Shown in pieces: positions 633 to 64,000 of a DNA stretch of 64,000 bases; the first letter of the stretch is position 1, and each line of letters opens with the position of its first letter. The notes under the pieces are model-generated. The model worked only from the letters and a program-made list of their open reading frames with translations, searched no databases and was not told where the DNA came from. The translations under genes were made by a program, and so were the position numbers. Source of the stretch: Burkholderiales bacterium (GTDB taxonomy: Bacteria > Pseudomonadota > Gammaproteobacteria > Burkholderiales > Casimicrobiaceae); contig JAEUPL010000006.1 of NCBI GenBank assembly GCA_016790165.1, positions 186,001 through 250,000 on the forward strand. The letters are read 5' to 3'.

Positions 633-769
633 GGTTTTGAAGTGGCCAGACGCGGGTGACACAAATTTGGAGGCGGCTCAGTCCCATCGTTCAGGCGGGT
701 ACAAGTCGCGGCGAGCGAAATAGAATACGCCATTCCGCTCCTTCTAGCCTCGTGCTTTCGCTCTTTATC

Positions 770-1945
770 ATGCCGACGCCCAAATCCATGCTTTCCGCCG
801 CCCGCGACGCCGGCGCTGGCACCAGTACAGGTGCCTCGAGCAGCGAGGCTGCAGCGTCGACCGTCCTCTCCAGCATTCCTGAGATCATTGCAGAGCTCAA
901 GGCCGGACGTATGGTAATTCTGGTCGACGAGGAGGATCGCGAAAACGAAGGGGACCTCGTCCTGGCGGCCGAGTTTGTCACACCGGCGGCGATCAACTTC
1001 ATGGCGAAACATGGGCGTGGCTTGATCTGCCTCACTTTGACCGCCGAGCGCTGCGAGCAACTGAGCCTGCCACTGATGGCGAGCACCAACCGGTCGGGAT
1101 TTGGAACCAACTTCACTGTCTCGATTGAGGCGGCCGAAGGCGTGTCGAGTGGCATCTCGGCCGCGGATCGGGCGCGAACGGTTCAAGCTGCCGTTGCGTT
1201 CAATGCCAAACCCGAAGACCTGGTGCAACCGGGGCACATCTTTCCGCTCATGGCGCGTCCCGGTGGAGTACTCATGCGCGCTGGTCATACCGAAGCCGGC
1301 TGTGATCTCACCCGTATGGCGGGGCTGACACCGGCGGCTGTCATTTGCGAAGTCATGAAGGACGACGGCACCATGGCCCGCCTGCCGGATCTGCAGGTTT
1401 TCGCGGCGCAGCACGGCCTGAAAATTGGGGCCATTACGGATTTGATCCAGTACCGTGCGGCACAGGAAAATCTCGTCGAGTGCGTTGGGCAGCGTCCGCT
1501 CAGCACAGCGCAGGGGCCCTTCGTGCTCAAAGTCTTTCGCGAGAAGTTGACCGACGCAACCCACCTTGCCATAGTCAAAGGAATGCCGACACCGGAGACC
1601 GAGACGCTGGTGCGCGTGCACGAACCGCTCTCCGTCATTGACGTGCTGGACGCGGACAGCGGCGTGCATTCGTGGAGCATCGCGCGTGCGTTGACGCGTT
1701 TGCAACAGGCGGATTGCGGTGTACTGGTTCTATTGCACCAAAGCGAGTCTTCCGCAGAGTTGCGCGAGCGAGCGCTCAATCCTAAACCGCTTAACGCGCA
1801 TCGCATGGATTTGCGCACCTACGGCGTTGGCGCACAAATTTTGCGCGCACTGAACGTGCGCAAGATGCGCGTGCTCGCCAAGCCCCGGCGCATGCCGTCG
1901 ATGACCGGCTTCGATCTTGAGGTGGTTGGCTACGAAGCGCCCTGA
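770..1945 (+). CDS. ribBA: 3,4-dihydroxy-2-butanone-4-phosphate synthase with degenerate GTP cyclohydrolase II-like domain
   Basis: Forms the four-carbon riboflavin precursor from ribulose 5-phosphate. The N-terminal domain has the RibB signatures [21 protein letters not shown] and [11 protein letters not shown], and looks intact. The C-terminal half resembles GTP cyclohydrolase II and keeps [17 protein letters not shown], but the segment where RibA carries its three zinc cysteines reads [18 protein letters not shown], with no cysteine. The GCHII half is therefore probably not catalytic, and a separate ribA would be needed elsewhere. The ATG at 770 is chosen because the upstream in-frame residues look non-coding. 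No FMN riboswitch was found in the leader. It heads the rib/nusB cluster. Confidence 0.9.
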
Positions 1946-3101: not shown

Positions 3102-4151
3102 ATGACCGAATTCGAACTGATTGCCAGGTATTTCCAGCGACGGTCGCCGTCGGCGCTGGTGGGCAACGGTGACGATTGCGCTGTGATCGCGCCTACGCCG
3201 GGTCACGCGTTTGCGGTTACTACTGATACGCTGATCGAAGGCCGTCACTTTTTGCCTACGCTGCTTCCGGAGAAATTGGGGCGCCGCGCAGTGCATGTGA
3301 ACCTCAGCGATTTGGCAGCGATGGGCGCACAGCCCCGCTTTGCGCTGCTGTCGCTCACGCTGCCTGCAATTGACGAGGGTTGGGTCGCCGCGTTCTCGCG
3401 TGGCCTGTGGTCCGCGCTGAACGAATTTTCCGTTGAACTGGTGGGCGGCAACACAACGCGTGGCGCGTTGTCGGTGAGCCTGACCGCGTTCGGCGAAGTG
3501 GCGCCCGGCCGGGCGTTGTTGCGCTCTGGGGCGAGGTCAGGCCACGACCTCTGGGTGAGCGGCCCACTCGGCGATGCCGGTTGGGCGCTGACAGCCCTGT
3601 TGCAGGATCGTGACGGCGCGGGCCAAATTGCCGTGACTGCCACCACCGAGCAAATTGAAAGGTACGAGTCCCCGACGGCGCGCGTCGGGCTGGGCCTCGA
3701 TCTGCGCGGCGTGGCCAGCAGCTGCATCGATATTTCCGATGGCTTGCTCAGCGAAGCGGGGCACCTTGCGACCGCGTCCGGCGTCGGCATGGACATCTAT
3801 CTCTCTGCGATTCCGACCGGCGTCGCCCAGGTGCGATACGACGACGTTGCGGACGCCGCTGGCAAGCTGTCGGCCCACGCGATCACGACCGACGTCCACG
3901 CCGCGTGCCGAGCGCTCCTCGCTCAGCGTTGCGTGCTGCACACGGGGGACGCCTATGAGCTACTGTTCACCGCCGCACCGCGCCACCGCGCCACCATCGA
4001 AGGGCTGTTCTCCAAGCACGCGTTGGCCGGCGCTCGCATCGGTGTTGTCACGTCGGCGCGGCCCGGGGCGAATGTCTGCGTGCTCGACGCACGCGGCCGG
4101 CCCCTCGACATTGAGGCGACCGGTTGGGATCACTTCGCGGAGGTGCCATGA
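3102..4151 (+). CDS. thiL: Thiamine-monophosphate kinase
   Basis: Phosphorylates thiamine monophosphate to thiamine pyrophosphate. 349 residues, AIR-synthase/PurM fold. Landmarks: start MTEFELIARYF, GNGDDCAVI acidic metal/ATP-binding segment, TDTLIEGRHF, NLSDLAAMGA, ELVGGNTTRG and CIDISDGLLSEAGH. Its stop overlaps the pgpA start in an ATGA, indicating translational coupling. It matters for the thiamine salvage operon at 60-63 kb: any thiamine kinase there would feed this enzyme. Confidence 0.95.
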   Translation: MTEFELIARYFQRRSPSALVGNGDDCAVIAPTPGHAFAVTTDTLIEGRHFLPTLLPEKLGRRAVHVNLSDLAAMGAQPRFALLSLTLPAIDEGWVAAFSRGLWSALNEFSVELVGGNTTRGALSVSLTAFGEVAPGRALLRSGARSGHDLWVSGPLGDAGWALTALLQDRDGAGQIAVTATTEQIERYESPTARVGLGLDLRGVASSCIDISDGLLSEAGHLATASGVGMDIYLSAIPTGVAQVRYDDVADAAGKLSAHAITTDVHAACRALLAQRCVLHTGDAYELLFTAAPRHRATIEGLFSKHALAGARIGVVTSARPGANVCVLDARGRPLDIEATGWDHFAEVP

Positions 4152-4660: not shown

Positions 4661-5215
4661 ATGATGTCACCCTCGATCAACCACGCCCTGCATCCTGAAT
4701 GGCTTGCGCTCGCTACCCATCTTGGGCGCATAGCCAGTGCGCGCGCTGCGATGGTCGCTGGTGCCGAGAGCTGCACCGGCGGACTGATCGCGGCAACACT
4801 CACGGCAGTGGGCGGCTCATCGACGTGGTTTGATCGAGCGTTTGTCACGTATAGCAACGAGGCCAAACAAGAACTGATCGGTGTGTCAGCGGCGACCCTG
4901 GCCCGCCACGGCGCGGTGAGCGAGCCCACAGCCACCGAGATGGCACGCGGTGCGCTTCGAACCAGCCACGCCACATTGGCTTACGCCGTCACTGGCATCG
5001 CCGGCCCGAGCGGTGGTAGCGCAGACAAACCGGTCGGAACCGTCTGCTTCGCTTTCGCAGATCAGCACGGCGTACAGTCCTCGACAGCACGTTTTTCTGG
5101 CGACCGCAGCGCCGTGCGCGAGCAGAGCGTTAACTACGTGCTTGGCGAATTGGTGCGCAGGCTGGAAATTGCGGCGCCGCTCGGCGCTGAGACCGTGCCA
5201 GAATCTCGCCTGTGA
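4661..5215 (+). CDS. pncC: Nicotinamide-nucleotide amidohydrolase (CinA C-terminal domain family)
   Basis: A 184-residue stand-alone CinA C-terminal-type protein, which deamidates NMN to nicotinate mononucleotide in pyridine nucleotide recycling. The motifs [42 protein letters not shown] and [20 protein letters not shown] are all present. The N-terminal molybdopterin-binding-like domain of full CinA is absent, as is usual in betaproteobacteria. Two adjacent ATG codons at 4661 and 4664 make the first residue ambiguous. It lies 3 bases after pgpA. Confidence 0.9.
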
Positions 5216-5237
5216 TCAACGACTTCCGTCTGCAGCG

Positions 5238-5798
5238 ATGAAATGTCCGTTTTGCGGTTCACTCGAGACGCAGGTGATTGACTCCCGTGTGTCCGAGACC
5301 GGTGACGCGATTCGCCGACGGCGCAAGTGCATGAATTGCGACAAACGGTTCACCACGTTTGAGACGGTTGAAATGCGTATGCCGCAGGTCGTCAAGAGCA
5401 ATGGCACGCGGATAGACTTCAATGTCGAAAAGATACGCACTGGCTTCAACCGCGCATTGCATAAACGATTTGTTCCCACCGAATTCGTCGATCAGGCCAT
5501 TGCACGAATTACCGCAAACGTGCACAGCCTGGGCGAGCGGGAAATTTCCTCGCGCAGCATTGGCGAAATGGTCATGGCCGAACTCTACAAGCTCGACAAG
5601 ATTGCCTACATTCGCTTCGCTTCGGTTTACAAGTCGTTTCAGGACGTCGAAGATTTCCGCTCGGCATTGCACGAAGTAGAGCGTCCGCCCGGCATTAAGG
5701 GCGGTAAGGCGGGCGCGAAACCCGGTAGCAAGGGAGCGGCGGGGCCGGGCAACAAGGCGCGGGTTGCCGTCGTAAAGTCACGCCCGACGTCGGCCTGA
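5238..5798 (+). CDS. nrdR: Transcriptional repressor NrdR
   Basis: Zinc-ribbon plus ATP-cone repressor of ribonucleotide reductase genes. It begins [17 protein letters not shown] and has the second zinc pair in [10 protein letters not shown], so four cysteines are intact. The ATP-cone runs from about residue 45 to 135. At 186 residues it is longer than the usual 150-160 because of a Gly/Lys/Ala-rich tail after VERPPGI that looks disordered. The start at 5238 is fixed by the zinc ribbon. In many relatives nrdR-ribD-ribE precede ribBA; here they follow pncC. Confidence 0.93.
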
Positions 5799-5804
5799 TT
5801 GCTT

Positions 5805-6908
5805 ATGTTCAGCGCGGTCGATGAACAGCACATGCGCCGCGCGCTCGCGCTGGCGGCGCTTGCCATGAACCATGCCACGCCCAATCCGCGCGTCGGGTGC
5901 GTCATCGTCCGGGACGGAATCGTGTTGGCCGAAGGCTTCACGCAGCCGCCTGGCGAGCCGCACGCAGAGGCGCACGCCATTCGCAGCGCCCGATCACGCG
6001 GTGTGTCGCTTGACGGCGCCACGGCCTACGTGACGCTCGAGCCCTGCAACCACTTCGGGCGCACGCCGCCGTGCACCGAAGGTCTCGTCGCAGCAGGTGT
6101 TGCGCGCGTGGTTGCAGCGATGGAAGACCCCAACCCGAAAGTCAGTGGTCGCGGATTTTCCCGTCTGCGTGAGGCCGGCATCGACGTGCGCGTTGGCCTC
6201 TGCGCGCACGACGCGATCGAACTCAATATCGGTTTCATCAAACGCATGACCACTGGACTACCCTGGGTCCGGTGCAAAGTGGCCGCGAGCGTTGATGGTC
6301 GCAGCGCGCTGTCGAACGGCGAATCGCAGTGGATTACCGGCCCTGAGGCCCGTCGTGACGGTCACTACTGGCGTGCCCGCGCCTGCGCCATTCTTACCGG
6401 GTGCGGTACCGTCAAATCTGATGACCCGCAAATGACGGTCCGCGATGTCTTGCCGCCGTTACCTGCTCTCACGCTACGTCAGCCCCTACGCGTCGTGTTT
6501 GATCATCTCGGCGACATCCCCCCCACCGCACGCGTGCTGCGCGGCGGAGCGGTGGTTTACTGTGCGGACCGTAGACCGCAGAAGCTACTGGGCGACGTGG
6601 AGGTTGTTAGCCTTCCAGACAAAGTGAATTCGGCCAAGATCGACATGGCCGCCGCGCTACAGGACCTCGCCGGGCGTGGTGTCAACGAATTGCACGTTGA
6701 AGCCGGAGCGCGGCTGATGGGGCCGATGATCGCCGCCGGGCTGGTCGACGAGTTGTTGATCTACTTGGCGCCAAAGATTCTTGGCCGTGACGCGCGTGAG
6801 ATGTTCAGTCTGGCCGAACCCCTTAAGCTGGCCGACGCAGTGCAGTTTGACGTTCACGACGTCACCCGCGTCGGCACTGATGTGCGCATGATTCTGCGGG
6901 CCACGTGA
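5805..6908 (+). CDS. ribD: Bifunctional diaminohydroxyphosphoribosylaminopyrimidine deaminase / reductase
   Basis: Carries out the deamination and side-chain reduction steps of riboflavin synthesis. The N-terminal deaminase has the zinc motif PHAEAHAI and the CxxxxxxxxC pair in PCNHFGRTPPC. The C-terminal reductase begins near VRCKVAASVDGRSAL and contains WITGPEARRDGHYWRA and HVEAGARLMGPMIAAGLVDE. The ATG at 5805 is preferred over an upstream TTG at 5799. It is six bases from the nrdR stop, so the two are probably cotranscribed. Confidence 0.94.
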   Translation: MFSAVDEQHMRRALALAALAMNHATPNPRVGCVIVRDGIVLAEGFTQPPGEPHAEAHAIRSARSRGVSLDGATAYVTLEPCNHFGRTPPCTEGLVAAGVARVVAAMEDPNPKVSGRGFSRLREAGIDVRVGLCAHDAIELNIGFIKRMTTGLPWVRCKVAASVDGRSALSNGESQWITGPEARRDGHYWRARACAILTGCGTVKSDDPQMTVRDVLPPLPALTLRQPLRVVFDHLGDIPPTARVLRGGAVVYCADRRPQKLLGDVEVVSLPDKVNSAKIDMAAALQDLAGRGVNELHVEAGARLMGPMIAAGLVDELLIYLAPKILGRDAREMFSLAEPLKLADAVQFDVHDVTRVGTDVRMILRAT

Positions 6909-6967
6909 TGCAGTCAGTCACGATGGCTGTTAGCCTACAGCGCGGGGCACCTGAACCAACGCTCAAA

Positions 6968-7053
6968 TTCGTGGTGACCTGTCGACGGTCTCCAGGGTAA
7001 TCGCAGCATTCCCGACTCGAACCCGTTGACAGCGAGCTTGTCGAGCCGTGAAC
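6968..7053. repeat. Possible dispersed inverted-repeat remnant between ribD and ribE
   Basis: The 197-base ribD-ribE gap holds TTCGTGGTGACCTGTCGA at 6968-6985 and, further on, GAGCTTGTCGAGCCGTGAAC at 7034-7053. Both resemble halves of the TTCGTGGTGAGC.TGTCGAA palindromic repeat found scattered in many betaproteobacterial genomes. Sequence decay makes this tentative. It separates ribE from the upstream genes. Confidence 0.35.
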
Positions 7054-7105
7054 GACCCCGAGCCAATCTATTCCTTCGTCTTCTGCTGACCGTCTATTAG
7101 AAACT

Positions 7106-7705
7106 ATGTTCACAGGCATCATTACCGGACTCGGTCGCGTCACCGAGCATCTACCGCTCGGTAACGGGCAGCGCATCACGGTTGCATGCGGCGACTGGCC
7201 CCTCGAGGACATTTCGATTGGTGATTCCATCGCACACTCGGGCTGCTGTCTGACAATCGTCGAAAAAGCGCCTGGTCTGCTGCGATCCGACGTATCTGCG
7301 CACTCACTCAGTGTGGTTACTGGTCTGTCGGTCGGTGCGCTGGTAAACCTCGAAAAGTCAGCCACACTGGCCGATAAACTGGGTGGACATCTGGTCACTG
7401 GGCACGTCGATGCCGCTGGCTTGGTGACGCGCTGGGAAAATATCGAAGAGAGCTGGCTACTGGAGGTCGAAGTGCCTGCGGCATTCGGCAAGTACCTTGC
7501 CAAGAAGGGCTCCGTCACGGTGAACGGGGTCAGTCTGACCGTCAACGACGTGAGCGACCAGAGCGACGTCACGCGGTTTCAGATCAACGTCATTCCACAC
7601 ACGTTTCAGGTCACCAATTTTTGTGAGCTCAAGACCGGCGACCGCGTCAATATCGAAATCGACACGATCGCCCGATATGTGGAGCGAATGTTGCAGCGGG
7701 TCTAG
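7106..7705 (+). CDS. ribE: Riboflavin synthase, alpha subunit
   Basis: Dismutates two lumazine molecules to riboflavin. 199 residues made of two tandem lumazine-binding barrels: the first starts MFTGIITGLGRV, the second near KLGGHLVTGHVDAAG. The motifs DSIAHSGCCLTIVE and KGSVTVNGVSLTVNDV mark the equivalent positions of the two barrels. The C-terminal NIEIDTIARYVERML helix drives trimerisation in the family. It is separated from ribD by about 200 bases, so it may have its own promoter. Confidence 0.95.
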   Translation: MFTGIITGLGRVTEHLPLGNGQRITVACGDWPLEDISIGDSIAHSGCCLTIVEKAPGLLRSDVSAHSLSVVTGLSVGALVNLEKSATLADKLGGHLVTGHVDAAGLVTRWENIEESWLLEVEVPAAFGKYLAKKGSVTVNGVSLTVNDVSDQSDVTRFQINVIPHTFQVTNFCELKTGDRVNIEIDTIARYVERMLQRV

Positions 7706-58514: not shown

Positions 58515-58931
58515 TTATTGGTCTTCCTTGAGGAAATGCGAGAAACCCTTGTCAAGCAGGGCGTCGACGGGTACGTCGTCGGCCAGCAGCATGACGTCCA
58601 CGTCGGCCGCATCCCGCGCGGCCTGATTGTCGCTCCACTGCTGGTAGCCGTACACCGCGATGGCGCCCGCAACGAACAGCCCGGTGGCCCAAAAGCGCCA
58701 GTCATTGACGCGCGTACGCCAGCCACCGGCGAGCGCCAGGGTGCCGCCGCTGACGCCGGTGCTGCTGGCGGCCTGCGCATCCAGTGACGCGATGGCTGCA
58801 CGACGGGCCTCCGCCAGCCGGTACGCCACGCCGGGCTTGATGTTCTGGGCGCTGGCATCAAGGTAAGGGCGCAAGGCCTTGCCCACGCGATCCAGTTCGT
58901 GTTCAGAGAGGAGGATTTCTTCTTTTTTCAT
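58515..58931 (-). CDS. DUF3619 family single-pass membrane protein
   Basis: 138 residues. The N-terminus LDRVGKALRPYLDASAQNI and RLAEARRAAIAS precede one membrane segment (WRFWATGLFVAGAIAVYGYQ) and a short acidic C-terminus with DVMLLADDVPVDALLDKGF. Its start overlaps the sigma factor stop (TTATGA), so it is probably an accessory or anti-sigma-like partner; that role is inference from position and topology. Confidence 0.87.
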   Translation of the reverse strand: MKKEEILLSEHELDRVGKALRPYLDASAQNIKPGVAYRLAEARRAAIASLDAQAASSTGVSGGTLALAGGWRTRVNDWRFWATGLFVAGAIAVYGYQQWSDNQAARDAADVDVMLLADDVPVDALLDKGFSHFLKEDQ

Positions 58932-59590
58932 AACGTGATCCCTTTGTGCCGGAGCAGGCCCTGCAGCGCGTGCACCGCGCGGGAGCAGTGGGTTTTCACG
59001 CTGCCCTCGGAGCAACCCATGACCTGGGCTGTCTCGGCCGTATCCATATCTTCCCAGTAACGCAGCAGGAAGGCTTCGCGTTGACGCGCCGGGAGCCGGG
59101 CCAATGCCTCTTCGATGGCGCCCATCGCCTGCCCTTGCTCCAGCGCGGCGAGCGGCTGATCCTTGCCCACCGCACTGTCTTGCGACTCGAGGATCTCCAG
59201 CGGATCGAAATCGTCGTCGGCATCTGCGCCGCCGAGGCTGGAGAAGTTCGTGGTGTACTGATTGCGCGTTTTCGTGCGCCGAAAGTGATCGAGGATGGTG
59301 TTCTGCAGGATGCGCGTAAATAGCATCGGCAGCTCGCCGGCCGGTTTGTCGGCGTAGCTCTCGGTCAGCTTCATCATCGCGTCCTGCACGATGTCGGCTG
59401 CGGCGTCGTCGTCGCGCACGGCGTAGGCAGCCTGCTTGAACGCACGACGCTCCACCGAGGCGAGGAACGCATTGATTTCTTTGGCCTGAGCCAGAGTAGG
59501 ACCTTTCTTCGTCTTGCGTCCGAGCGACGGCAAGGCATCACCAAGTTGGGCGATTATAGGCAGCGAACCAGCGACAACGGCGGTCAACAT
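58928..59590 (-). CDS. RNA polymerase sigma factor (ECF type, DUF3619-linked)
   Basis: 220 residues. Region 2 begins VERRAFKQAAYAVRDDDAA with DIVQDAMMKL; region 4 contains LPARQREAFLLRYWEDMDTAETAQVMGCSEG, shown here as LPARQREAFLLRYWEDMDTA followed by ETAQVMGCSEGSVKTH. This is the standard sigma that sits before DUF3619 and DUF3106. The ATG at 59590 is my choice; its first 30 residues (ending GRKTKKGP) look like an extension relative to the usual start, so the true start may be internal. Confidence 0.88.
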   Translation of the reverse strand: MLTAVVAGSLPIIAQLGDALPSLGRKTKKGPTLAQAKEINAFLASVERRAFKQAAYAVRDDDAAADIVQDAMMKLTESYADKPAGELPMLFTRILQNTILDHFRRTKTRNQYTTNFSSLGGADADDDFDPLEILESQDSAVGKDQPLAALEQGQAMGAIEEALARLPARQREAFLLRYWEDMDTAETAQVMGCSEGSVKTHCSRAVHALQGLLRHKGITL

Positions 59591-59716
59591 CTGGACAGAA
59601 TCTCCCCTGCGAGCAACGCGCCGGACGACTCCCACAACGGGAGCACCGGCCGGATCTAAAACGCGCGTATGACAGCGACGGATGACAACGCACGATAAAT
59701 TTCAGCGGCGATGGCG

Positions 59717-60274
59717 TCAAGCCGCGCCGGGCAGCGCGAGGATGGCGTGAATCGCCGCGTCGGCGCGCGACGCTCCCTTCCCGCGAATGACTTGCCAGCA
59801 GCTTTCGCCTGCCGTCCGGCCGGGCGTCGCCAGTTCACGCGCCAGCGCCGTCTGGATGCGAGCCTGTGCGGCCGGACCGTCGCGCATGAAGCCATCGGCA
59901 GCCCACTCGAGATCGGCTTCGCAGAGCAGCGTCAGCGCGTAGATGCGCTGCAGCGTGCGGCCACGTGGGAGGAGCGATGCGTCACCGAATACATCTTCAC
60001 TATAAATCGCGGTGAGTAGCGGGGCCGTGTCGCAAAACACAAACGGCGCCCCGTGTCTCGCGGCGTCTTCGCGCGCTGCCAGGACATGGATATGCTGCGT
60101 TTCGAGGATCAGTGATTGCTCGTGGCGCTGCGGTGTGCGCTGATGGGCCTGGCAAAAGCTCCGCAGATATTCCGGCACCCAGGGGCAGGAAAATCGGGCC
60201 GCGAGAGCCTGCGCGAGCGTGGTTTTGCCGGTGCTTTCTGCGCCCATCAGGCACACCAGTTTCGGCGTGTTCAT
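59717..60274 (-). CDS. NadR-like P-loop kinase in a TPP-regulated operon (predicted thiamine kinase)
   Basis: 185 residues similar to the ribosylnicotinamide-kinase domain of NadR. Walker A is GAESTGKTT at residues 11-19. WVPEYLRSFCQAH, then VFCDTAPLLTAIYSEDVFGD correspond to the NadR substrate and Walker B-like segments. It overlaps pnuC by ATGA, and the operon leader is a TPP riboswitch. This makes thiamine phosphorylation more likely than nicotinamide riboside. ThiL, also in the window, could then make TPP from TMP. Substrate is inference. Confidence 0.8.
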   Translation of the reverse strand: MNTPKLVCLMGAESTGKTTLAQALAARFSCPWVPEYLRSFCQAHQRTPQRHEQSLILETQHIHVLAAREDAARHGAPFVFCDTAPLLTAIYSEDVFGDASLLPRGRTLQRIYALTLLCEADLEWAADGFMRDGPAAQARIQTALARELATPGRTAGESCWQVIRGKGASRADAAIHAILALPGAA

Positions 60275-60882
60275 GACGACGAAGCCCTTGCCAGGCGGCG
60301 CCGCCAGCCGATCCAGCCGCATAGGGCCAGTGCGAAGAAAATAACGTAGAGCAGCGCCGTGAGCGTCAGGCCTTTGTACGCGAATAGCGCGACGCTAGCG
60401 GCATTGACCACCAGCCACGTTGGCCAATTTTCAATGAGCTTGCGCCCGAGCAACACCGTGCCTGCGACACTGCCGGCGGTCACAAATCCGTCCGCCCACG
60501 GCACATCGGAATCAGTGACCGCGCGCAGGAGCAGGGCGAACACCAGCCACGTCAGCGCCCAGCCCAGCGCAAGCACCGTCACGCCCCGCGCGCCCAGCCG
60601 GGCGATCCGTAGCGGCCCGTCCGCGCCTGCGCGATGACCGTGCAGCCACTGCCACCAACCCCACAGCGCCGTGACCGCGAAGAATAGATTGACGCCGGCT
60701 TCGCCGTAGAGTTTGCTCGCGTAGAACAGCCACGCGTACAGCACGCTGGCGACGATCGTCAACGGCCAGCCCCAATGAATCTCGAACACGTTGCAGGCGA
60801 TGTTTGCCAACGCCAGCGTGAAGGCAATCACCTCAAGCCAGGTGACGGCGGAACCAAGCAAGGTGAACGCGGTGTCGAGCAT
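60271..60882 (-). CDS. pnuT: PnuC-family permease, probably a thiamine transporter (PnuT)
   Basis: 203 residues with about seven membrane segments. The PnuC-type motif WGWPLTIVASVLYAWLFY, YGEAGVNLFFAVTALWGWWQW and the C-terminal WPTWLVVNAASVALFAYKGL are clear. The family moves nicotinamide riboside, riboflavin or thiamine by facilitated diffusion with metabolic trapping. The TPP riboswitch upstream and the neighbouring kinase point to thiamine; the PnuC family call is direct and the thiamine assignment is inferred. Confidence 0.85.
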   Translation of the reverse strand: MLDTAFTLLGSAVTWLEVIAFTLALANIACNVFEIHWGWPLTIVASVLYAWLFYASKLYGEAGVNLFFAVTALWGWWQWLHGHRAGADGPLRIARLGARGVTVLALGWALTWLVFALLLRAVTDSDVPWADGFVTAGSVAGTVLLGRKLIENWPTWLVVNAASVALFAYKGLTLTALLYVIFFALALCGWIGWRRRLARASSS

Positions 60883-60973
60883 GATCTTCCTGCAAATTGC
60901 GGCGCACGGCCAGCACCGTTACGTCTACGCGACCCCGCGAGGAAACGCCACTTCCATTCGGGGCGTTCGCGGT

Positions 60974-63163
60974 TCAAAAATCGATCGTGACACTGCCGCG
61001 CAGCGTGCGCGGCGTCGACGGGAACAGGTAAGTGCCACCCCAGTCGGTGGTCGGCGCTTCGCGCCAGTACAGGCGATTGGTCAGGTTTTCAACGTTCAGC
61101 CGCCACAGCGTGGCTCTGCCCGCGAGTTGGGTTTGATACCGCAAGCCCAAGTCAAGCTGCCAGGCGTCCGGAAGTACGACGCTGCCGTCCGCCAGCGCGG
61201 TTTTGCCGCGCTCAAAGCTGGCCAGCGCGTTCAGCGCGAGCCCGCGCACCGCAGCGATCTTGTAGTCCGCGAACAGTGACGCCTTGGCGCGCGGTACGTT
61301 GGTCACGCGCTGGCCCACCAGCGCCGGATCCGCTGACCTGGTGTACGTCGCGTCGAGCAGCATCAGGCTAGCCTGCAGCGACAGGGCCTCATCGATGCGA
61401 CCGGTTGCTGCGAGCTCGAGCCCGCGATGACGTGCCACTTTGTTGCCCGCGACGCGGCGGGGCAAGCCGCTGGCCGTGTTCACGTCGTCGGCGTAGGGCT
61501 TGTCGATGCTGAACAGTGCGCCGCTCACCAGCAGTCGCGCGTTGGGCTGCCACTTCGCGCCGAGTTCAACTTGCCGACTCTTCAGTGCGGGCAAGGCCTC
61601 GCCATAGTTCACAAACTGCGTCGGTCGGTTCGGTACGACCTCCAGCTCCGCCCCTTCGCCCCACGACCCGTAAATCATCGCGCCCGTGACCGGCGTCCAT
61701 GCCAGGCCCGCCCACGGCGTGCTGACCGTCTGATCGTAGGCGACCGCGCGCGAGCCATCGCTGCGTTCGCTGGCCCGGTGCAGGCGAGTCACGCGCAGCC
61801 CAGCGAACGATTGCACCTGCGCGCCCAGTGTGCTCTGCACTGTGGCATAGCCTTCCAGCGCTCGTTCACGGCTGTTGCTGTTCAGATCGCTGAGTGTCCC
61901 GTCCGCGGCAAGCGGCACCGGCGCGAACACGTTGGTCGTGCCGACGTAGTTGTAGGTCTGCATCGGTGGCAGGTCGCTGCGGGTGCGGCGCCCCGCCAGT
62001 CCCAATCGAGTGACATGCGCGACGGCCGCGGTGTTGAATCGCCCATCCAGATGCAGGTCCCAACTGGCCAGCTTGCGCTGTTCGCCCTCGCTGCGGTAGT
62101 CGTACACGTCTACGTCACCGTTGCCGCAAAGACCGGGGTAAACATAGGTGCTCGCGCTGCTGCAACCATCCGGAAACGCCAGCCGGTCGTTGATGCGCGA
62201 CCATTGGCCATTCACGGCGACACGCGCGCTCCAGTCGGCATTGAAGCGATGATTGAGCGCCACCTCCGCCGCGCCGACCGTGGCCTGAAAAGGCAACGAC
62301 CACGACTGGTTGTTCAGGTTGAGGCGCGGGTTGATCGGGCTGGGCAGCGTTTCGCCCACGCCATCGCCGTTGCGGTCGAGCAGCCCGAGACCGGGCACCG
62401 AGCGCTGGCTCTTGCGGTGAAATTCCAGATCGACTGACGCGCCCGTCTGCGCGCTCAACGGCGTGGCCAGCGCGAGACTCACGAATTGGCGCTGGCCGTT
62501 CGCGTGGTCGAACTGCGGATGCAGGTTTTCCGCGGCCACGTTCAGCCGCAGGCTAAGCGCCCCCACGTTCGTATTGGCATCCACGTGCGCCTTGTGGCCG
62601 CCGCGCTGATCCACGGCAACCGTCGCCGTGGTGAAGGCATCGCGCAGAGGGACTTTGGTGACGTAGTTGACCAGTCCGCCGGGCGCGGACACGCCCGACT
62701 GCAGACCGGCGACGCCTTTGAGCACCTCGATCCGGTCCTTGTTCTCGAGCGCGATGGGGGCGTAGTTGGAGACCGACAACCCGTTGCGCCGGAAATTGCC
62801 CGCCTGGTCGAGCAGAAAGCCGCGAACCGAGAGGCTCTCGATGTAGCCCGTGGTGTTGTAGGCGTCGGCCAGCGACGCATCCAGCTTGAGCACGCTGGAC
62901 AGCGACTGCGTGCCGTTGGCGCTGAGCAGGTCGGCGCCGATCACGGTGATGCTCTGCGGCGTTTTCGCAATCGGGGCGCTGAATCCGCCGGCGTCGGCCT
63001 GGTCGGCGTCGAGCACCGGCGCGGATTTGCCGGTGAGCGTCACCGGCGCCACGCGTTCTGGGGCGGCCACAGGCTGTGCGTGGCTCGGTAGCGTAGCGAC
63101 TGCCGTCGCGAGCAGGGCCGCAGCGGCGCCGACGAACGCGTTGGGTTTCAGAGTGAGTGCCAT
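60974..63163 (-). CDS. TonB-dependent outer-membrane receptor under TPP riboswitch control
   Basis: 729 residues. Signal peptide about 1-29 (ending LPSHAQ). The plug domain contains PQSITVIGADLL and VSVRG-like LSVRGFLLDQAGNFRRNG, and VLKGVAGLQSGVSAPGGLVNYVTK. The beta-barrel follows and ends in RTLRGSVTIDF with a terminal Phe. It looks like a siderophore-type receptor in sequence, but the 5' leader carries a TPP riboswitch. Thiamine uptake is therefore the best prediction. The start at 63163 follows a GGAAG; another in-frame ATG at 63178 is possible. Confidence 0.88.
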   Translation of the reverse strand: MALTLKPNAFVGAAAALLATAVATLPSHAQPVAAPERVAPVTLTGKSAPVLDADQADAGGFSAPIAKTPQSITVIGADLLSANGTQSLSSVLKLDASLADAYNTTGYIESLSVRGFLLDQAGNFRRNGLSVSNYAPIALENKDRIEVLKGVAGLQSGVSAPGGLVNYVTKVPLRDAFTTATVAVDQRGGHKAHVDANTNVGALSLRLNVAAENLHPQFDHANGQRQFVSLALATPLSAQTGASVDLEFHRKSQRSVPGLGLLDRNGDGVGETLPSPINPRLNLNNQSWSLPFQATVGAAEVALNHRFNADWSARVAVNGQWSRINDRLAFPDGCSSASTYVYPGLCGNGDVDVYDYRSEGEQRKLASWDLHLDGRFNTAAVAHVTRLGLAGRRTRSDLPPMQTYNYVGTTNVFAPVPLAADGTLSDLNSNSRERALEGYATVQSTLGAQVQSFAGLRVTRLHRASERSDGSRAVAYDQTVSTPWAGLAWTPVTGAMIYGSWGEGAELEVVPNRPTQFVNYGEALPALKSRQVELGAKWQPNARLLVSGALFSIDKPYADDVNTASGLPRRVAGNKVARHRGLELAATGRIDEALSLQASLMLLDATYTRSADPALVGQRVTNVPRAKASLFADYKIAAVRGLALNALASFERGKTALADGSVVLPDAWQLDLGLRYQTQLAGRATLWRLNVENLTNRLYWREAPTTDWGGTYLFPSTPRTLRGSVTIDF

Positions 63164-63233
63164 CGAAAATTCTTCCATCGACGGCAGGGGTGAGGGCACG
63201 GACAACCCCGGCGACATGCCGGATGAATCTGCG

Positions 63234-63327
63234 ACGCTTCCCTGCGCAAGCATTACCTTGTTCAAGTTCCAGGGTGTCATCTCAGCCGAGGCGCACGTCT
63301 TGACGTGAACCACAGCACCCCTAGCGT
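63234..63327 (-). promoter_or_regulatory. TPP riboswitch (THI element)
   Basis: Read on the minus strand, the leader contains in order AGGGGTGC, CTGAGATGACACCC, GGAACTTGAACAAGGTAATG and CTTGCGCAGGGAAGCG, the conserved THI-box cores. The closing stem P1 pairs ACGCT (63323-63327) with AGCGT (63234-63238). It ends 71 bases before the receptor start, leaving room for an expression platform. A TACAAT at 63371-63376 on the same strand may be the -10. TPP binding should turn down receptor, permease and kinase together. Confidence 0.93.
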
Positions 63328-63655
63328 GATGGCCGCGCAACAGCGGAACGATGCAGCGGCGACGGGAGATATTGTAGGCGGGGCAGCGAGTCCGCATCGC
63401 GCGGGTGCCCACGGAACAGCTTTTTGCCCTAAACGACAGGCATACGGTGCATAGCGGTCCGTTTTTTACAATATCAACTATGTGCAAAAAGCGCATGCAA
63501 CGACTATCTAGCAGCCGTTGCCGCCGAAAAGCTGTTTGCATCGTTTCACTTTGTGCGACGTGGAGTCACGCCTCGCGCGACTTCCGCGACGGGTGTCGGT
63601 CAGTGACCCGACGGTGGCTAGACTGCCGGCGAATTCACGAAAGGGAGCGCGACCG
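63328..63655. other. Divergent promoter region between the thiamine operon and a DUF2157 gene
   Basis: 328 bases without a gene. The left part holds the probable -10 (TACAAT, minus strand) of the thiamine operon; the -35 is weak. The right part is AT-richer around 63460-63485 (ATTGTAAAAAACGG, minus-strand reading) and must hold the promoter of the gene at 63656. No repeat or RNA gene was recognised. Confidence 0.45.
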
Positions 63656-64000
63656 ATGAAGCGCAGCGATGTGGATACGTTGCACCACGACGGCATGATC
63701 TCCGAGGCCCAGCACGCGGCGATTGTTGCGCGCTATGCGCTGGACGCGCCCGGTGGCTCGCGGCTGGGCGGCATCTTCGCGATGATTGGCGCTGCGATTG
63801 CCATCGCCGGGGTGGCGCTGGTGATCTCGGCCAATTGGGCGGCGATTCCACGGCTGGTGAAGATCGCGGCGGCGGTGGTGCTGCTGATTGCGCTGCATGC
63901 GGGCGGATGGTCCGTGCGAACCCGAAACTACCCACGCATCGCGGCGGCGCTGCACATCGCAGGCAGCGTGATGTTTCTGCTCTGCATTGCGCTTCTCGGG
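63656..64000 (+). CDS. DUF2157 membrane protein, N-terminal part
   Basis: 115 residues are visible before the window ends. A soluble N-terminal helix region (MKRSDVDTLHHDGMISEAQ, then AAIVARYAL) precedes hydrophobic segments IFAMIGAAIAIAGVALVISA and KIAAAVVLLIALHAG. This is the DUF2157 pattern, including the NWAAIPRL between segments. AAGGGAG lies eight bases before the ATG. Function of the family is unknown; the gene continues beyond the right edge. Confidence 0.8.
   Translation, partial: MKRSDVDTLHHDGMISEAQHAAIVARYALDAPGGSRLGGIFAMIGAAIAIAGVALVISANWAAIPRLVKIAAAVVLLIALHAGGWSVRTRNYPRIAAALHIAGSVMFLLCIALLG

Follow-up and report, generated by a model that had tools for sequence, protein, structure and literature searches.

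The window, a stretch of 64,000 nucleotides from a Burkholderiales bacterium (contig JAEUPL010000006.1, positions 186,001 to 250,000), raises the question of which compound is taken up and phosphorylated by an operon that begins with a thiamine pyrophosphate (TPP) riboswitch and whose genes carry default names pointing to siderophores and nicotinamide riboside. On the minus strand, the gene order in the window is TPP riboswitch, TonB receptor, PnuC-family permease, and NadR-like (AAA_28) kinase. Taken together, our analysis makes it very probable that this operon imports and traps thiamine, with the kinase acting as a non-orthologous thiamine kinase that forms thiamine monophosphate (TMP), which ThiL would then convert to TPP.

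The operon and its riboswitch

A TPP riboswitch had been predicted in the leader by a first-pass annotation, and the search with Infernal and the Rfam model was positive. The aptamer (THI element; 63222..63332, minus strand) matched RF00059 over model positions 1-105 with 56.1 bits (gathering score 54.3; E 2.6e-8) and represented the only TPP match in the window's genome, while aptamers of nine relatives in the order scored 57.4-67.6 bits. The aptamer is predicted to bind TPP.

The receptor gene, which comes after the riboswitch in relatives too, is an open reading frame (ORF) at 60974..63163 (minus strand) for a TonB-dependent outer-membrane receptor (PF00593, PF07715), here predicted to recognise thiamine. 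It scored 259.5 bits on TIGR01783, siderophore receptor (cut-off 223.5). The permease (60271..60882, minus strand), a predicted PnuT for thiamine, passed both PF04973 (159.3 bits, cut-off 27.3) and TIGR01528 'nicotinamide riboside transporter PnuC' (63.7 bits, cut-off 42.45), and is the sole PnuC-family match in this genome. The kinase (59717..60274, minus strand), a predicted thiamine kinase forming TMP, is a P-loop protein with the Walker A motif GAESTGKT and the invariant residues K17, E35, R38, and D82. With 99.6 bits on PF13521 AAA_28 (cut-off 27), it was the only one of three AAA_28 matches in the genome above the cut-off. Its longest ORF begins at 60322 (201 amino acids), but the start is most likely the ATG at 60274, giving a protein of 185 amino acids, because this ATG overlaps the permease stop codon as ATGA and the N-termini of relatives begin at about this position. 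Of the default names anticipated in the first-pass annotation, siderophore receptor and nicotinamide riboside transporter were thus reproduced by the respective TIGR models, but NadR was not, since the kinase stayed under the NadR cut-offs and reached 65.3 of 341 bits on TIGR01526, covering profile positions 163-307 only. The anticipated gene for ThiL, the thiamine-phosphate kinase of the second step (TMP to TPP), was indeed present near 3.1 kb and thus unlinked to the operon (ORF 3102..4151, plus strand; TIGR01379, 284.2 bits, cut-off 184.15). Its neighbourhood reads ribBA-ribH-nusB-thiL-pgpA-pncC, assigned by eye except for ThiL and the PncC domain, which were scanned.

In the proposed route, thiamine would pass the outer membrane through the TonB receptor and the inner membrane through the PnuC-family permease (PnuT). 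The NadR-like kinase would then use ATP to convert it to TMP, which would be retained in the cell and turned into TPP by ThiL.

Regulation of the operon appears to involve an expression platform at 63159..63189 (minus strand), which was recognised as a comparative motif and comprises CCCTGC (63189-63184) and a hairpin formed by GCCGTCGA (63185-63178) and TCGATGGC (63166-63159). Written out, the last part of the window's leader is CCCTGCCGTCGA-loop-TCGATGGC; the loop holds a Shine-Dalgarno-like GGAAG, and the receptor ATG lies within the 3' arm. Folded alone, this leader was not unusual (z -1.42, 15 of 200 shuffles equally good), and since the single-sequence fold was unconvincing by itself, the hairpin was assessed by comparison. 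The motif CCCTGCC[G/A]TCGA-loop-TCGATGGC was shared by 13 of the 14 leaders that have the window's layout. Across 12 aligned leaders, base pairing in the 8-pair hairpin was complete (96 of 96 cells), compared to 16-58% in slid controls. Variation is restricted to one pair and is one-sided only (G-U to A-U in 2/12) with zero compensatory changes, and the 3' arm is partly coding (Met-Ala), so that coding alone could preserve those letters.

Towards its 3' end, the aptamer contains a second element, GCAGGG (63240..63245, minus strand), that is complementary to CCCTGC. Both strings are invariant in the 12 aligned sequences and are separated by 47-74 bases of poorly conserved letters, which is consistent with a putative anti-sequester pairing. 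When TPP is scarce, this alternative pairing would open the hairpin; when TPP is abundant and bound to the aptamer, GCAGGG would be unavailable to CCCTGC, and the hairpin would form and cover both the ribosome site and the receptor's start codon, halting translation. The position of the hairpin suggests such a translational off-switch and favours 63163 as the receptor start. Translational control is preferred because no terminator-like site was found in the leader, the sole one in 59400-64000 (plus strand, 61109; shuffle mean 3.7) falling within the receptor gene.

The kinase clade and its genomic neighbourhoods

Operons with the same riboswitch were also identified in other genomes. In a sample of 200 genomes of the order, a protein search revealed kinase homologues in 30 (genomes and loci are numbered with G and L, respectively). 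Of the 34 wider stretches around these kinases, 28 were scanned with Rfam, and 25 that had no Rfam TPP match or had not yet been scanned were searched with R1, a covariance model built from ten aptamers. Nine of the 34 carried a TPP riboswitch, and all nine also harbored the kinase, a PnuC-family gene, and a TonB receptor. From named genomes, we took the best 80 of 573 kinase loci, all of which are assigned to beta-proteobacteria by their titles or, for titles of wider scope, by similarity. A PnuC-family match was detected in 75 of these 80 (tblastn) and a riboswitch in 29 (R1), four of which (L089, L091, L092, and L113) were confirmed by Rfam; L090 and L097 duplicate G198 and G017 (same contigs).

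Altogether, 37 distinct riboswitch-bearing rows, including the window, revealed four layouts. The layout of the window, riboswitch-receptor-PnuC-kinase in a single direction, occurred in 14 rows, PnuC-kinase-riboswitch-receptor in 3, a convergent arrangement with PnuC-kinase facing riboswitch-receptor on the opposite strand in 17, and kinase-riboswitch-thiBP in 3. A wider search in the class (369 genomes, threshold 1e-12) matched 14 genomes, two of them already known. Since the 12 new stretches revealed no riboswitch by R1, nor any TPP match in the 10 subjected to cmscan, the riboswitch-linked kinase is so far confined to Burkholderiales within these samples. In Undibacterium squillarum (L106), a TonB-receptor-like ORF (4985-7243; best model TIGR01782, 162.9 bits, under the cut-off) immediately precedes the PnuC and kinase genes, and R1 detected no riboswitch there.

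A maximum-likelihood tree was calculated from 125 kinase domains (bootstrap correlation 0.985, short of the wanted 0.99), excluding L070 (partial), L090 and L097 (duplicate contigs), and L071 (no match). A single 90-row clade (support 100/97) contained all 37 riboswitch-linked kinases and excluded E. coli NadR (L182), the NadR-like protein L187, as well as further AAA_28 proteins. The residues G11, G16, K17, E35, R38, D82, Y91, D127, R131, and R170 are conserved in 98-100% of the clade and are common in NadR-type kinases too. In contrast, L37, R46, P48, Q53, and A89 occur in 96-100% of the 90 rows, their frequency staying below 25% both in 12 NadR-type kinases and in 10 further PnuC-linked ones; they are candidate specificity residues. 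Comparison with the families of known function, as envisaged in the first-pass annotation, set the kinase apart from each of them: a plain NadR was rejected by the separate clade and by the presence of AAA_28 only, with no nicotinamide mononucleotide (NMN) adenylyltransferase domain, the ThiK family by PF13521 with no PF01636 match, and the TPK/ThiN/Tnr3 family by the lack of a PF04263 match in the kinase and in all 31 genomes profiled below.

No riboswitch was found in the stretch examined for 53 of the 90 clade rows, several of these stretches stopping near the kinase, and 42 of the 53 formed one group (support 100/99). An enolase-like ORF lay just before PnuC-kinase in seven of eight inspected members of this group (scanned in L093 only, TIGR01060). 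Among such loci, including L093, L095, L101, and L134, where the clade kinase and PnuC follow the enolase-like ORF with no TPP riboswitch in the stretch examined, three of the four named belong to genomes without PF02581 over the cut-off; these enolase-linked pairs perhaps serve constitutive thiamine salvage. Two further clade kinases (L045, 7282-7974, and L047, 7167-7847) carry a cysteine-rich C-terminal tail (CxxCxxPxCERRLF), a possible metal-binding knuckle. Other Burkholderiales (L052, L053, L056, L059, L063, and L064) carry short AAA_28 kinases of a different, second family (168-179 amino acids) next to PnuC, with no TPP riboswitch.

The transport partner of the kinase appears to be exchanged in some genomes. 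In three Rhodoferax-like genomes (L089, L091, and L092), 18-61 bases separate the end of the kinase gene from a downstream TPP riboswitch (59.5-63.8 bits), and the next gene is ThiB-like, with 304-318 bits (cut-off 93.4) on TIGR01254, a subfamily model named thiamine ATP-binding cassette (ABC) transporter substrate-binding protein. A permease gene with ThiP as its best model is also present, and in L091 and L092 a gene for an ABC ATPase follows; the three stretches yielded no PnuC-family gene and no receptor of this kind. In addition, a quick PnuC tree grouped 81 clade permeases on one branch (SH-aLRT 90, not starred), and since the permeases of G017 and G147 fell elsewhere, the kinase may also be paired with a second PnuC lineage.

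Thiamine pathway genes and the predicted reaction

ThiC, ThiE, TPK, and ThiL were profiled in 31 genomes, made up of G083 and the 30 in which the protein search had revealed a kinase homologue. ThiC was absent in nine (G000, G038, G163, G125, G198, G113, G017, G147, and G089) and ThiE/TenI (PF02581) in eight, i.e., the same genomes apart from G089 and including that of the window. TPK_catalytic (PF04263) was found in none of the 31, and ThiL was above the cut-off in 30, with G198 lacking it. Thus, the eight ThiE-less genomes with a linked kinase also had no detected ThiC or TPK, and ThiL was kept in seven of them. The two remaining sample genomes of the ten with a linked kinase, G072 and G056, displayed the convergent layout. 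Across the 200-genome sample, the linked kinase was present in 8/10 ThiE-less versus 2/190 ThiE-positive genomes (Fisher p of 3.6e-11 at genome level and 1.9e-4 at genus level), the genus-level value being the fairer one because the genomes are related. Within genus g61, G113 harbored the kinase and no ThiE, and G069 and G189 harbored ThiE with no PnuC and no kinase match.

For the named genomes, 50 of the 80 loci were taken for a PF02581 search and 49 were searched; completeness is not given for these genomes, and many are metagenome-assembled. PF02581 was missing over the cut-off in 12 of 29 riboswitch-bearing genomes (L090 and L097 repeat G198 and G017), which by layout corresponded to 8/9 for that of the window, 2/2 for PnuC-kinase-riboswitch-receptor, 2/3 for thiBP, and 0/15 for the convergent one. 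It was likewise missing in all five close relatives with no riboswitch in the stretch examined (L077, L078, L081, L082, and L088) and, among the other 15 clade members lacking a riboswitch, in nine.

Because ThiL, whose substrate is TMP, is kept in seven of the eight genomes while ThiE as a source of TMP is gone, we favour a thiamine kinase over a pyrophosphokinase; a kinase making TMP would explain both the loss of ThiE and the retention of ThiL. NadR-type kinases, moreover, transfer a single phosphate. Both points render it very improbable that the kinase is a thiamine pyrophosphokinase leading directly from thiamine to TPP and replacing the Tnr3 of Bacteroidetes, even though its operon position is the same as that of Tnr3 (PMC5613172) and G198 has no ThiL match. 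Another substrate would be a thiamine precursor or breakdown product, such as hydroxymethylpyrimidine (HMP), hydroxyethylthiazole, or analogues, since many bacteria salvage such compounds with genes under TPP riboswitches (PMC3766115). Without ThiE, however, no known enzyme in these genomes would join the two phosphorylated halves, and ThiBPQ-type systems transport thiamine itself (PMC12632268), so that we regard this explanation as extremely unlikely.

The family names of permease and kinase point to a third possibility, namely salvage of nicotinamide riboside, which PnuC would import and the kinase would convert to NMN, the riboswitch having been captured or acting on the receptor only. AAA_28 and PnuC pairs without a riboswitch do exist, one of them in an E. 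coli record with a kinase that is NadR-like in full length, and the window itself harbors an NMN amidohydrolase-family gene (4661-5215, plus strand, second after thiL; TIGR00199, 148.7 bits, cut-off 68.9) that could close the route; PncC-type genes, however, say little about the substrate of the kinase. This alternative is very unlikely in view of the linkage to TPP riboswitches in 37 rows and four layouts, the ThiB/ThiP-like linkage in three, the association with ThiE loss, and the separate clade without an NMN adenylyltransferase domain, and under it the eight ThiE-less genomes would have no detected route from thiamine to TMP. The thiamine-operon reading of the first-pass annotation is therefore supported by riboswitch linkage, ThiE loss, and the ThiB/ThiP-like neighbours without PnuC in three genomes, and its proposal of the NadR-like kinase as a non-orthologous replacement by the absence of ThiE, ThiC, and TPK together with a usually retained ThiL.

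Several observations, among them the NMN amidohydrolase-family gene, weigh against a thiamine kinase. The aptamer of the window is just 1.8 bits over the gathering score, its genome is 91.9% complete, the nearest solved relatives of the kinase are NadR enzymes (PDB 9x6f, 6gye, and 1lw7), and the permease passes the cut-off of the NCBI PnuC equivalog model. By R1, 51 of the 80 named loci had no riboswitch in the stretch examined, and in 23 of the 37 rows the riboswitch does not head the kinase (17 on the opposite strand, 6 with the kinase upstream), so that linkage there is by neighbourhood only. The hairpin motif is absent in L041 and in all 23 leaders of the other layouts and therefore cannot be called general. 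All 15 convergent-layout named genomes retain ThiE, and G041 and G086, which belong to one genus and have no ThiE, were not among the kinase matches; a PnuC-family gene is present in G086 and none in G041. Of the exchanged transporters in L089, L091, and L092, the ThiB-like genes reached 97-99 of 317 bits on the stricter TIGR01276, the permease gene missed the ThiP equivalog cut-off, and the ATPases of L091 and L092 scored 173-174 bits on thiQ (TIGR01277), below its cut-off of 245 and below other ABC ATPase models. With E. coli ThiK as the query, no match was obtained in 13 genomes; as this search lacked a positive control, an APH-type thiamine kinase elsewhere is possible. Finally, G198 (L042) is ThiE-less and carries the operon with no ThiL match, which may come from a gap in the assembly or from a further activity of the kinase.

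Two further features of the window were noted. A gene for a sigma-70 family factor (58928-59635, minus strand) lies 81 bases downstream of the kinase on the same strand and is not obviously a member of the operon. At 957-1047 (minus strand), a match to the Rfam family V_AS9, a Vibrio antisense RNA (52.8 bits, gathering score 50), is located antisense within the ribBA-like ORF (656-1945, plus strand) and may just reflect coding conservation.

Comparison with known systems

Based on these results, it is likely that the clade represents a further, unrelated family of thiamine kinases, i.e., P-loop proteins related to nicotinamide riboside kinases, marked by L37, R46-x-P48, Q53, and A89, distributed Burkholderiales-wide with repeated co-loss of ThiE, switching transport partners between two PnuC lineages or a ThiBPQ-type system, and named by default 'AAA family ATPase' or 'NadR-like'. 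If true, this would fill the missing step from thiamine uptake to TPP in apparently thiamine-auxotrophic Burkholderiales, correct three misleading default annotations together, and offer a case in which a kinase type from vitamin B3 metabolism has naturally been adapted to vitamin B1. No naming of a NadR-like thiamine kinase was found in the open-access literature searched, as far as excerpts of it go, and an earlier mention in older papers is possible.

With regard to the enzymes, the proposed route from thiamine via TMP to TPP resembles that of ThiK and ThiL in E. coli, but ThiK belongs to the APH family (PF01636) and the window kinase to AAA_28 (PF13521). With the NadR kinase domains of the structures named above, it shares AAA_28, the Walker A motif, E35, R38, D82, D127, and R131; unlike NadR, it has no adenylyltransferase domain, forms its own clade, and displays the specific residues L37, R46, P48, Q53, and A89.

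Operons of similar composition differ in the kinase slot. On a plasmid of Sphingomonas parapaucimobilis (L185), a TPP riboswitch (66.4 bits), a TonB receptor, and a PnuC-family gene were also found, but with an APH-family phosphotransferase, like E. coli ThiK, in the kinase slot and in the order riboswitch-receptor-APH-PnuC, which counts in favour of the thiamine reading; a Novosphingobium plasmid carries the same genes with no riboswitch at the gathering score. Tnr3 is a thiamine pyrophosphokinase. The OMthi-pnuT-tnr3 operon of Bacteroidetes (PMC5613172), whose existence the first-pass annotation had correctly stated, likewise combines a TPP riboswitch, a TonB receptor, a PnuC-family thiamine permease, and a thiamine-activating enzyme, with the difference that here an AAA_28 kinase takes the place of Tnr3, ThiL is the second enzyme, and TPK_catalytic is found in 0/31 genomes. 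Thus, the slot beside PnuC is occupied by Tnr3 in Bacteroidetes (PMC5613172), by an APH protein in Sphingomonas, and by a NadR-like kinase here.

As for uptake, PnuC-family permeases have likewise been tied to thiamine, by experiment or by a TPP riboswitch, in Shewanella woodyi (PnuT, PMC7749635) and in acI Actinobacteria, whose pnuC genes are riboswitch-linked (PMC5301498); the likeness is drawn from their description, and the substrate of the window permease is a prediction. Predictions of PnuT and receptors in thiamine uptake are already known (PMC5613172, PMC5301498, PMC2771747, and PMC7749635), as is a Variovorax operon for thiamine that includes a permease and a TonB receptor (PMC10409787). 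Altogether, the locus is best read as a new enzyme family within an already known kind of operon.

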